Source of the DNA: Roseithermus sacchariphilus
GTDB lineage: Bacteria > Bacteroidota > Rhodothermia > Rhodothermales > MEBIC09517
Reading direction: 5' to 3'
Length of the DNA stretch: 64,000 nt
NCBI GenBank assembly: GCA_003285105.1
Contig: CP030158.1
Span: 3,020,664 to 3,084,663 of the forward strand
Shown here: one piece after another, positions 15,189-33,904 of the stretch
How the letters are laid out: the number at the start of each line of letters is the position of its first letter
Numbering within the stretch: position 1 is the stretch's first letter
The notes under the pieces: generated by a model
Seen by the model: only the letters and a program-made list of their open reading frames with translations
Told to the model about the DNA's origin: nothing
Databases searched by the model: none
Position numbers and translations under genes: made by a program

Positions 15189-15235
15189 TTGAGGGGGCTG
15201 CCGGCTACATGCTGCTCGCTACGGGCTGCCGGCTT

Positions 15236-15269
15236 CTGACCGCTTCCTGCTAACCGCTGACCGCTGATC
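15236..15269. repeat. Short ACCGCTG heptad repeat before the cystathionine gene
   Basis: The bases before the start codon read as a degenerate seven-base repeat (TGACCGC TTCCTGC TAACCGC TGACCGC TGATC). It is the same family and phase as the right-hand arm of the large array at 32710-33018, so these heptads occur at two separate places in the window. Confidence 0.6.
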
Positions 15270-15270
15270 T

Positions 15271-16422
15271 ATGCCCTACCGTTTCGGTACCCTTGCCATC
15301 CATGCCGGGCAGCAGCCCGATCCGTCGACCGGGGCTATCATGACGCCCATCTACCAGACCTCCACCTACGTGCAGGAGGCCCCGGGGCGTCACAAAGGGC
15401 ACGAATACGCCCGGGTGACCAACCCGACGCGCTCGGCGCTGGAGGGCAACCTCGCTGCGCTGGAGCGCGCCGAGCACGCCGTCTGCTTCAGCTCCGGGGT
15501 GGCCGGCATCGACGCCATCCTCAAGGGCCTGCGCCCGGGCGATCACGTCATCGCCACGAACGACCTCTACGGGGGTACCTATCGCCTCTTCCGGCAGGTC
15601 TTCGAGCCGTTCGGGCTGCGCTTCTCCTTCGTCGACATGCGCGACCTGGCGGCCGTGGAGGCTGCGCTGACCCCGTCGACCCGCCTGCTCTGGATCGAGA
15701 CGCCGACGAACCCGCTGCTGCGTCTGCTGGACATCCGCGCGCTGGCCGACCTCGCCCGGTCCCGGGGCATCGACGTGGCGGTGGACAACACCTTTGCCAC
15801 GCCCTACCTCCAGCAGCCGCTCACTCTCGGCGCCGATCTCGTACTCCATTCGGCGACGAAGTACATCGGGGGGCACTCCGACTTGATCGGCGGAGTGGTG
15901 TGCACCAGCAACGAGGCCTGGCACGAGAAGCTCCGGTTCCAGGTCAAGAGCACCGGCGCCGTGCCGGGGCCGATGGACTGCTTCCTGATGCTTCGGGGCA
16001 CGAAGACGCTGCACCTGCGCATGGAGCGCCACTGCGCCAACGCCCGCCGGGTGGCCGACTTCCTGGCGCAGCATCCGAAGGTGGGGCGGGTGCACTATCC
16101 GGGCCTCCCCTCTGATCCGGGGCATGAACTGGCCCGGCGCCAGATGCGCGACTTCGGGGGGATGGTGTCGTTCACGCTGGCCGATGATCGCATCGAGAAG
16201 GCGGTGGCGGTGATGACCTCCACCCGGGTCTTCGCGCTGGCCGAGAGCCTGGGCGGCGTCGAGAGCCTGATCGAGCACCCGGCGTCGATGACGCACGGCT
16301 CCATCCCCGCCGAGGCTCGCCGGGCCGCCGGGCTCGACGACTCGCTCATTCGCCTCTCCGTCGGCGTCGAGGACGTCGAGGATCTGCTGGAAGACCTGGA
16401 TCAGGCGCTGGAACGGGTGTAG
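15271..16422 (+). CDS. Cystathionine gamma-synthase/lyase family PLP enzyme
   Basis: A 383-residue Cys/Met metabolism enzyme of PLP fold type I. The PLP lysine is Lys197 in SATKYIGGHSD. YARVTNPT, the GV stretch near residue 75, YGGTYRL and VDNTFATPYLQ are all standard. The C-terminal SLGGVESLIEHPASMTH and LIRLSVGVEDVEDL close the family profile. It probably converts O-acyl-homoserine plus cysteine to cystathionine, or cleaves cystathionine; sequence alone does not separate MetB, MccB and CGL. Length is normal. It is monocistronic and convergent with the molybdoenzyme gene. Confidence 0.92.
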   Translation: MPYRFGTLAIHAGQQPDPSTGAIMTPIYQTSTYVQEAPGRHKGHEYARVTNPTRSALEGNLAALERAEHAVCFSSGVAGIDAILKGLRPGDHVIATNDLYGGTYRLFRQVFEPFGLRFSFVDMRDLAAVEAALTPSTRLLWIETPTNPLLRLLDIRALADLARSRGIDVAVDNTFATPYLQQPLTLGADLVLHSATKYIGGHSDLIGGVVCTSNEAWHEKLRFQVKSTGAVPGPMDCFLMLRGTKTLHLRMERHCANARRVADFLAQHPKVGRVHYPGLPSDPGHELARRQMRDFGGMVSFTLADDRIEKAVAVMTSTRVFALAESLGGVESLIEHPASMTHGSIPAEARRAAGLDDSLIRLSVGVEDVEDLLEDLDQALERV

Positions 16423-21525: not shown

Positions 21526-21863
21526 GAAGCTACCGGATCTATCTGCAGGGACGGTCGGTGGGCAGGGTGCCTCCCTAGTGACGACGCGGCCGGGCGCGCG
21601 TTCCCCCGCGCGATGTGCATCGGCACCGGAGGGCGGATCTGCCCGGGGCGGGTCTGCCCGGGGCGGGTCTGCCCGGGGCGGAGGCGTCGGGGGTGCGGGC
21701 GGGGCTGCGGAGCGCGAACGGCGCATCGGCGAGGCGGGTCCGCCCGGACGCGACCACCGCTTCAACCTACGAAACCCGGTGCAGAATCAAAAGCAGGTGC
21801 GCCCGGCCGCCGGGGACCGGCCGGCCCGTCTGCGGTGCCGGGAGCGGGCAGGCGCGGCGCGCC
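21526..21863. other. Spacer with tandem repeat upstream of the E1 gene
   Basis: These 338 bp lie between the histidine kinase stop and the E1 start, both on the minus strand. Apart from the 15-bp repeat array I find no convincing promoter, no RNA motif and no protein-like ORF. The frame stays open upstream of the E1 start but encodes only the repeat and Arg/Pro-rich sequence. Confidence 0.5.
21631..21681. repeat. 15-bp tandem repeat, 3.4 copies
   Basis: GGGCGGRTCTGCCCG is repeated three times (21631-21645, 21646-21660, 21661-21675) plus a partial GGGCGG. Each unit is nearly palindromic (GGGC...GCCC), so the array can form serial hairpins about 105 bp before the E1 start codon. Confidence 0.85.
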
Positions 21864-31450: not shown

Positions 31451-32698
31451 ATGATGCAACGCAATGTCGGTGTGGTCTTCGGCGGGGTGTCGCCGGAGCA
31501 CGAGGTGTCGATCATCTCGGCCCTGCAGGCAGCGGCGGCGCTGGACCGCGCGCGCTACCGCCCCGTCCCGATCTACATTGCCAAGGACGGCGTCTGGTAT
31601 ACCGGCGACGACCGCCTGCTCGACCCGGCCGCCTACCGCGACCTCGACCGCATCCGCCGGGAGGCCACGCCGGTGATGCTCGACCCGCGCTCCTACCGCA
31701 CGCTGGAACTCGTGGCCGCCGGCGGCAGACGCTTCGCACGGCCCGCCCGCTGGTCCGTCGACGTGCTCCTGCTCGGGCTGCACGGCGGACCCGGAGAGAA
31801 CGGCGGCCTCCAGGGGTTGTGCGAGGCCTTCAACGTGCCCTACACCGGCAGCGGCATCCTCGGGTCGGCGCTGGGCATGGACAAGGTGCTCTCCAAGATG
31901 CTCTGCCGCGACCAGCAGATCCCCATCGTCGACTTCGTGGCCTTCCGGGAGTCCGACTGGGGATACCACGAAGAGGCCTGGCTGGACCGGTGCGAGCAGG
32001 AGCTGGGCTACCCGGTCGTCGTCAAGCCGGCCCGTCTCGGCTCGTCGATCGGCATCAGCCGGGCTGCCGACCGTGCGGCGCTGGATGCCGCCATCGAGGA
32101 GGCGCTGCGCTACGACGAGAAGGTGGTCGTCGAGCGGGCCGTGACGGCGTTGCGCGAGATCAATTGCTCGGTGCTGGGCGACGTGCACGAGGCCATCCCC
32201 AGCGTGCTGGAGGAGCCGGTCCGCTCGGCCGGGCAGGAATTGCTGTCGTTTCGGGAGAAGTACCTGCGCGGCGGGGGGGCGGACGGCGGCAAGCACGCCC
32301 GCCGTCCGGCCAAGCAGCCCGCCGGAGCCGAGGGGATGGCGTCGCTGGACCGCGTCATCCCGGCGCCGCTGCCCCCGGAGAAGACGGCCGAGATCCAGGC
32401 GCTCGGCGTCCGCATCTTCCAGCTCTTCGAGTGCAGCGGCGTCGCCAGGATCGACTTCCTGATGGACGGAACCACGGGCCAGGTGTATTTCAACGAGATC
32501 AACACCATCCCCGGTTCGTTCTCGTTCTACCTCTGGGAGCCCACCGGGGTGTCGTTCACCGACCTCACGCACCGCCTCATCGACCTGGCGCTGAAACAGC
32601 ATCACGACAAGAACGGGCGGGTGCGGACCTACGACGTCAACCTGCTCTCCGAACGCAGCCTCCAGGGCCTGAAAGGGGCCAAGCAGCGAGCCGGGTGA
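31451..32698 (+). CDS. ddl: D-alanine--D-alanine ligase
   Basis: A 415-residue ATP-grasp enzyme joining two D-alanines for peptidoglycan. GGVSPEHEVSIISA, LHGGPGENGGLQG, GSALGMDKVLSK, VVKPARLGSSIGI and FNEINTIPGS are the family landmarks. The omega loop (REKYLRGGG onward) carries a Lys/Ala-rich stretch (KHARRPAKQPAG) before MASLDRVIPAP, as in the longer Ddl forms. The start at 31451 is the first of two ATGs. The 3' side runs into the heptad repeat array 11 bp after the stop. Confidence 0.95.
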   Translation: MMQRNVGVVFGGVSPEHEVSIISALQAAAALDRARYRPVPIYIAKDGVWYTGDDRLLDPAAYRDLDRIRREATPVMLDPRSYRTLELVAAGGRRFARPARWSVDVLLLGLHGGPGENGGLQGLCEAFNVPYTGSGILGSALGMDKVLSKMLCRDQQIPIVDFVAFRESDWGYHEEAWLDRCEQELGYPVVVKPARLGSSIGISRAADRAALDAAIEEALRYDEKVVVERAVTALREINCSVLGDVHEAIPSVLEEPVRSAGQELLSFREKYLRGGGADGGKHARRPAKQPAGAEGMASLDRVIPAPLPPEKTAEIQALGVRIFQLFECSGVARIDFLMDGTTGQVYFNEINTIPGSFSFYLWEPTGVSFTDLTHRLIDLALKQHHDKNGRVRTYDVNLLSERSLQGLKGAKQRAG

Positions 32699-32709
32699 CG
32701 GGGAGCCGT

Positions 32710-33018
32710 CAGCGGTCAGCGGTCAGCGGTCAGCCGTCAGCCCTCAGCCCGCAGCCGTCAGCCCTCAGCCCGCAGCCAGCAGCCCTCAGCCCGCAGCCAG
32801 CAGCCCTCAGCCCGCAGCCAGCAGCCCTCAGCCCGCAGCCAGCAGCCCTCAGCCCGCAGCCAGCAGCCCGCCGCCCGCAGCCAGCAGCCCGCCGCCCGCA
32901 GCCAGAAGCCCGCCGCCCGCAGCCAGAAGCCCGCAGCCAGCAGCGGACGTCCCCACGGCAAGCCCCACCGTGTCGAGCCAGAACGCTGATCGCTGACCGC
33001 TGACGGCTGACGGCTGAC
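32710..33018. repeat. CAGCNNN heptanucleotide array with inverted right arm
   Basis: From 32710 to 32947 the sequence keeps a strict seven-base period (about 34 units), mostly CAGCNNN with variants CAGCGGT, CAGCCGT, CAGCCCT, CAGCCCG and CAGCCAG. The triplet CAGCCCT-CAGCCCG-CAGCCAG recurs as a 21-bp superunit. After 34 bp of unique sequence, five heptads in inverted orientation (ACCGCTG, ACGGCTG type) fill 32982-33018. The left CAGCGGT/CAGCCGT block is complementary to this right arm, so a long stem can form between two convergent genes. The reading frames through it are repeat artefacts. Confidence 0.9.
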
Positions 33019-33022
33019 CCGG

Positions 33023-33904
33023 TCAGGCGTAGCGCGGCGGGGCGAGGGCGACGGCGATGCGGGCGGCGACGCGGGCGTTGTGTTCGAGCAGTGCCAGGTT
33101 GGCCCGGAGGGAGCGCTCGCCCGTGAGCGTGCTCAGCCGCTGGAGGAGGAACGGCGTGACCTCGCCGGAGCGCAGCCCCCGGCGGTCGGCTTCCTCCAGC
33201 GCCTGCTCGATGGCCGGGGCGATCTCCCCGGCCGGGATGGCGGCCTCCTCCGGGATCGGGACCGTCACCAGCGTGGCCCCCGGCAGCCCGAGGTCCCGCC
33301 GCGCCCGTACGAGTGCGGCCACCTCCTCCGGCGTGTCGCAGCGGACGTCCACCGGCAGGCCGCTCGTCCGGCTGTAGAAGGCCGGCATCTCGTCCGTGCC
33401 GTAGCCGACGACCGTCACCCCGCGCGTTTCCAGCACCTCCCGCGTGGCAGGCAGGTCCAGGATGGCCTTGGCACCGGCGCAGACGACCACCATCGGGATC
33501 CGGGCGAGGGCGTCGAGGTCGGCGCTGACGTCGAACGATGGCCCGCCGTGCGCGGCGCGGTGCACCCCGCCGATGCCGCCGGTGGCGAAGACCTCGATCC
33601 CGTGGCGGTGCGAGATCCACATCGTCGCCGCGACGGTGGTGGCGCCGTCCAGGCGGCGCGCCACGGCCACGGGCAGGTCCCGCAGGCTCAGCTTGCGCAC
33701 GCCCGGATGCGTGGCCAGGTGCTCGATCTGTGAGGGCACGAGCCCGGCCAGCGGGCGTCCCTGCAGGACCCCCACGGTGCGCGGCAGCCCGCCCTCCTCC
33801 AGGACGGCCGCCTCCAGGCGCCGGGCGAGGTCCAGGTTGTGCGGGTAAGGGAGCCCGTGCGCGATCACCGTGGATTCCAGGGCGACGAGCGGTTGCCGGT
33901 ACAT
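33023..33904 (-). CDS. psuG: Pseudouridine-5'-phosphate glycosidase
   Basis: A 293-residue PsuG, which splits pseudouridine 5'-phosphate to uracil and ribose 5-phosphate. ALESTVIAHGLPYP, the TVAATMWISHRHGIEVFATGGIGGVHR core, VVCAGAKAILDL and TPFLLQRLSTLTGE match the family in order and length. PsuK (the kinase) is not adjacent, so pseudouridine phosphate may come from elsewhere. It is divergent from nrnA (191 bp). Confidence 0.95.
   Translation of the reverse strand: MYRQPLVALESTVIAHGLPYPHNLDLARRLEAAVLEEGGLPRTVGVLQGRPLAGLVPSQIEHLATHPGVRKLSLRDLPVAVARRLDGATTVAATMWISHRHGIEVFATGGIGGVHRAAHGGPSFDVSADLDALARIPMVVVCAGAKAILDLPATREVLETRGVTVVGYGTDEMPAFYSRTSGLPVDVRCDTPEEVAALVRARRDLGLPGATLVTVPIPEEAAIPAGEIAPAIEQALEEADRRGLRSGEVTPFLLQRLSTLTGERSLRANLALLEHNARVAARIAVALAPPRYA

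Follow-up and report, generated by a model that had tools for sequence, protein, structure and literature searches.

We examined what kind of element fills the gap between the convergent genes ddl and psuG of Roseithermus sacchariphilus, and what it might do there. The window, i.e., the whole 64,000 nt stretch of DNA that was analysed (contig CP030158.1, positions 3,020,664 to 3,084,663), carries ddl, coding for D-alanine-D-alanine ligase (31451–32698, + strand, stop codon at 32696–32698), and a psuG-like gene of the Indigoidine_A/PsuG family (33023–33904, − strand, ending at 33023), both assigned with Pfam; the gap between them is almost entirely filled by a facing pair of heptad arrays. The left arm (32704–32944, + strand) is made of a partial unit AGC and 34 heptads of the form NNTCAGC or NNNCAGC (32707–32944), with CAGC in a single frame in 29 of the 34 positions, so that the phased array described in the initial annotation was confirmed. 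The longest unbroken run of CAGC heptads was 23; in 30 first-order Markov resamples of the window this run never exceeded 3. TRF assigned period 7 to 32704–32903 and period 21 to 32742–32944 (9.7 copies, 96%), and the claimed 21-bp superunit (CCTCAGC-CCGCAGC-CAGCAGC), which lies in the middle of the arm, is indeed repeated strictly about five times, degrading afterwards. An unstranded 40 bp spacer (32945–32984) leads to the right arm (32985–33019, − strand), which holds five inverted heptads, GCTGANN on the + strand, and is complementary to the left end, as had been proposed (31 nt at 94%, 34 nt at 88%). The right part of the spacer together with the first inverted bases forms a copy of the 29-bp motif AGCMCCAYMGTGTCARGCCAGAACGCTGA (32961–32989). 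The heptads previously noted before the gene at 15271, a Cys/Met-metabolism PLP enzyme by Pfam, are also real: a second array of opposite orientation, and more degenerate, occupies 15197–15269 (− strand) and ends just before the start codon, with GCTGA pointing into the gene.

The genome (a single contig of 4.8 Mb) was searched with a four-unit pattern, which gave 932 matches vs 12 for the reversed control, and a one-third sample (1.6 Mb) was read directly in stretches. The sample held about 66 array loci, 63 of the 66 being intergenic as judged by a home-made, crude gene caller. Within the same 1.6 Mb, 4-mers occurring four times at constant spacing were concentrated at lags of 7, 14, 21 and 28 and were much scarcer at most of the other lags, and successive units alternate with a 14-bp period (lag-2 identity, z 14). 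The location between convergent genes stressed in the initial annotation stood as a mild preference but not as a rule: among gaps of at least 40 bp, arrays were present in 13/88 convergent gaps vs 47/791 others (Fisher p = 0.006), i.e., in 14.8% of convergent, 6.1% of co-directional and 5.4% (9/166) of divergent gaps. The longest array in the sample lies between divergent genes some 6.6 kb before the window begins (L026:12904-14049; G000:C1:3012904-3014049), and has about 164 near-identical TTTCAGC/CTTCAGC units over 1.1 kb. The 29-bp spacer motif occurs in 11 copies in this genome, including the one at the window locus (control, 0), and was absent from 112 other genomes of the order, so that a composite element has spread in this lineage. 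As a universal part of the element the spacer was rejected, the motif being confined to this genome and foreign spacers being mutually unrelated by eye.

Other repeats accompany these arrays. Many of them adjoin, or are separated by, a second dispersed repeat that is about 175 bp long and contains much CCCCTTCGGGGG / GGGGAAG (e.g., L041:8350-8554, G000:C1:808350-808554, and roughly a dozen other sites of the 1.6 Mb). Arrays of CCCGGAG CCCACGG CCCACAG with period 21 stand beside TCAGC arrays (L042:7931-8125 and L042:12277-12709; G000:C1:827931-828125 and 832277-832709), so the period-7 habit is wider than one core.

A scan of species genomes with CAGCGGTCAGCGATCAGCNNTCAGC, a pattern that skews which variable bases are seen in the cross-phylum set, found at least 117 stretches with NNTCAGC heptads in many phyla. 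Among the matches listed were Planctomycetota, Chloroflexi, Acidobacteria, Nitrospirae, Cyanobacteria, Verrucomicrobia, Bacteroidetes, several proteobacterial groups, Deinococcota and Actinobacteria (phyla per record titles). Prevalence is patchy: arrays were present in 7 of the 114 genomes of the own order and in 22 of 199 Planctomycetota, a few of these had 100 or more matches, and the stretches from three others (G116, G115 and G124) had few or no TCAGC arrays. Absence of such arrays elsewhere had been named as the observation that should count against the initial annotation; they were instead found both genome-wide and across phyla. The window array almost certainly belongs to this cross-phylum TCAGC heptad family. 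As the family core is TCAGC after two variable bases, the arrays are best written AGC(NNTCAGC)n, a refinement of the CAGCNNN proposed earlier, and at ddl-psuG lies one of the dispersed, intergenic, non-coding copies of an element with the fixed plan AGC(NNTCAGC)n - short spacer - (GCTGANN)nGCT.

The facing arms have one polarity. Pairs were accepted when each arm had two or more exact TCAGC units and the arms were less than 120 bp apart; with both strands of the fetched stretches searched, 46 close pairs had the order TCAGC-then-GCTGA and 0 the reverse, irrespective of gene directions; convergent and divergent gaps gave the same order. The pairs (33 cross-phylum, 9 own genome, 2 Moorena, 2 Phycisphaerae) come from about 20 genomes, with several loci per genome, and since loci were selected by one arm only, the 46:0 count is unbiased by the search. 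Close opposite-strand pairs in the Planctomycetota match list were likewise all TCAGC-then-GCTGA by eye. The reverse order appeared only at greater distances (3 within 600 bp). A looser definition admitted a few reversed pairs in the own genome, the arms of which are CAGC arrays poor in TCAGC and are excluded by the strict definition. Single arms across phyla had GCTGA pointing into the gene by 31:3 at starts and 37:13 at stops; the own genome gave 30:12 at starts and 26:17 at stops, the latter not significant. A polarity this strict, kept whatever the gene direction in about 20 genomes from several phyla, is a simple regularity not expected from slippage alone, and it offers a new handle on the bacterial preference for 7-base repeats. 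Neither the fixed polarity nor the cross-phylum TCAGC family was found described in the open literature searched; a literature search with the array letters returned only unrelated primer or target text.

At the outer arm end the partial unit AGC is conserved, and no conserved outer flank was found beyond AGC in the array family. The variable bases of facing heptads did not match in register beyond composition, so that facing arms share the 5-bp core only; without covariation, nothing indicates that full pairing is selected for, and a covarying perfect palindrome was therefore rejected. The predicted RNA hairpins are strong all the same. One was predicted at the window locus (z −2.2), with a stem joining both gene ends and a very long loop, and RNA hairpins were predicted for ten foreign elements with z from −2.4 to −11.3.

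Orthologous loci show how the arrays change. In four Moorena genomes one and the same stop codon is directly followed by an array, of 8, 5, 3 and 6 heptads, with the same sequence downstream; whole heptads are thus gained or lost at a fixed place. The recombination hotspot suggested earlier is borne out in this form only, as whole-heptad copy-number change in the Moorena orthologs. That the arms lengthen and shorten by slippage is likely. In Lacipirellula the gap between the same two genes varies: one species has an inverted heptad element there and another has degenerate heptads, two carry a different inverted-repeat family built of CGCAAAG units, and two have short GC hairpins; intergenic elements turn over completely in this gap while the gene edges stay put. 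The CGCAAAG inverted family (L255:1342-1440, L140:1322-1525 and the orthologous gap in L256) has one arm order in its three pairs.

Heptameric repeats are an already known class, to which the 7-base arrays belong: among tandem DNA repeats in the intergenic regions of prokaryotes, heptamers are reported to be the most abundant, and clear clues to their function are lacking (PMC6344855). Like the heptameric long simple-sequence repeats (Mrazek 2007, as reported in PMC4679880; PMC6344855), ours are tandem with a 7-bp unit far beyond chance, intergenic, patchy across phyla, and change copy number in 7-nt steps, as seen in whole units at the Moorena orthologs. They differ in that their constant part is limited to a 5-bp core and that they come in inverted pairs of one polarity, neither of which appears in the available text of PMC4679880 and PMC6344855. 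Also close are the TAACTGA direct repeats of Beggiatoaceae, Cyanobacteria and Bacteroidetes (PMC4679880), which are also CTGA/TCAG heptads, mostly intergenic, sometimes mixed with related heptads, and subject to 7-nt indels between strains. In BOGUAY, 147 of the 170 TAACTGA sets point toward the start codon, and in another genome a set directly after a stop codon has the reverse orientation (PMC4679880); these orientations agree with the single-arm polarity reported here, where the CTGA sense also runs toward start codons (across phyla, in the own genome, and at 15197–15269 of the window). However, TAACTGA is one constant heptad, whereas our units are RCTGANN (here GCTGANN, with NN variable); TAACTGA sets are much shorter in most species; and BOGUAY has a single indirect repeat among its 170 sets (PMC4679880), whereas facing pairs are common here.

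REP elements and BIMEs with their RAYT transposases are similarly extragenic, palindromic, hairpin-forming and present in many copies (PMC2817692, PMC3733652). The present element differs from these 20–40 bp palindromes with a GTAG or CGTC tag at one end: its arms are tandem arrays, only AGC is conserved at the outer end, no such tag is present, and no Y1 transposase (PF01797) was found in the own genome, control genomes being positive, on which ground REP/RAYT was rejected. No known RNA family was assigned, Rfam 15 giving 0 matches above the curated gathering score in 32400–33300. REP hairpins stabilise 3' ends without mediating termination (PMC13289151), and we infer that they may be a functional analogue of the ddl-psuG element, which is not a family assignment.

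The overall reading that we favor, at a probability of roughly 45%, is that of a dispersed intergenic hairpin with heptad arms changed by slippage, which may act as a bidirectional 3'-end boundary. In this scheme a palindromic seed with a set polarity would spread from one intergenic gap to others, and its arms would then gain and lose whole heptads, frequently two or three together, through replication slippage. Because the seed sets the polarity, the inversion of the arms would be kept even as the variable bases of each arm drift on their own. A transcript of either strand through the pair could form a long hairpin immediately beyond the stop codons, and the ddl-psuG element might thereby protect RNA 3' ends and/or form a transcription barrier, the latter being among the earlier suggestions for the locus, and would resemble REP hairpins without being REP. 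The odds are about even that seed dispersal is the cause of the polarity; no target-site duplication, conserved outer flank beyond AGC or identified transposase was found, and so there is no known agent for this dispersal. The boundary function at ddl-psuG, the likeliest use of the element there and proposed from position and predicted folding, is tentative: the enrichment in convergent gaps counts for it, and the presence of arrays in divergent gaps as well counts against it.

Could the arrays simply be neutral? Polymerase slippage may favor 7-nt steps, as Mrazek (2007) proposed according to PMC4679880, and intergenic gaps may tolerate the resulting arrays with no function at all. The whole-heptad changes in Moorena, the 14-bp alternation in the own genome, the 21-bp superunit in the window, the array of about 164 near-identical units and the fully turned-over Lacipirellula gap all speak for neutral simple-sequence expansion; yet it predicts no polarity of facing arms, and it leaves the same TCAGC core in many phyla unexplained. 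We regard it as possible but rather improbable. Since slippage alone does not give 46:0, a polarised palindromic seed with arm slippage is favored. Polarity could also have its source in recognition, phased TCAGC heptads read outward from genes being a polar punctuation signal across phyla for a putative cellular factor, which would fix the polarity and explain the 7-bp preference; we think this unlikely. Such a protein-binding array, also among the earlier suggestions, or one-way transcription insulator, would stop or organise whatever leaves a gene on either strand, and it fits the strict polarity independent of gene direction, the constant phase with free variable bases, GCTGA reading into genes at both ends, and the same sense toward start codons of the published TAACTGA repeats (PMC4679880). 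It has no candidate protein, however, most related genomes are entirely without arrays, and at stops the own genome shows a ratio of only 26:17; we give it a low chance as well, although it would, if true, be a more interesting outcome than a hairpin boundary.

Two further explanations rest on familiar element classes. The facing arms, short, inverted, dispersed and non-coding, could be the terminal inverted repeats of a non-autonomous, MITE-like transposon, in keeping with their fixed inverted polarity and with the spacer motif spread in one lineage. But flush direct repeats around 42 elements were at the shuffled level, which led us to reject a MITE with target-site duplication; conserved termini are lacking, since only the core is common and neither the variable bases of facing arms nor the flank agree; the position is stable in Moorena; and Lacipirellula shows whole-gap replacement rather than clean insertion. 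A MITE-like origin is thus very unlikely. A coding repeat or canonical intrinsic terminator is more improbable still. The convergent genes, the strong predicted hairpin and a + strand open through the array (ORF 31819–33003) might suggest one or the other, but the array-crossing ORFs are out-of-frame shadows of ddl and psuG, by which a coding repeat was rejected, and 0 sites with a GC-rich hairpin and U-tract were called in 32600–33150, so that an intrinsic terminator was rejected for want of a U-tract or any terminator-like call. Without target-site duplications, a Y1 transposase or a U-tract, classical MITEs, REP elements and intrinsic terminators are all unsupported, and the original reading of the locus as phased, inverted, non-coding and not a CRISPR is upheld. 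Elsewhere in the window, at 21631–21682, there is a 15-bp tandem repeat (GGGCGGATCTGCCCG, 3.5 copies), the unit of which is self-complementary at its ends.
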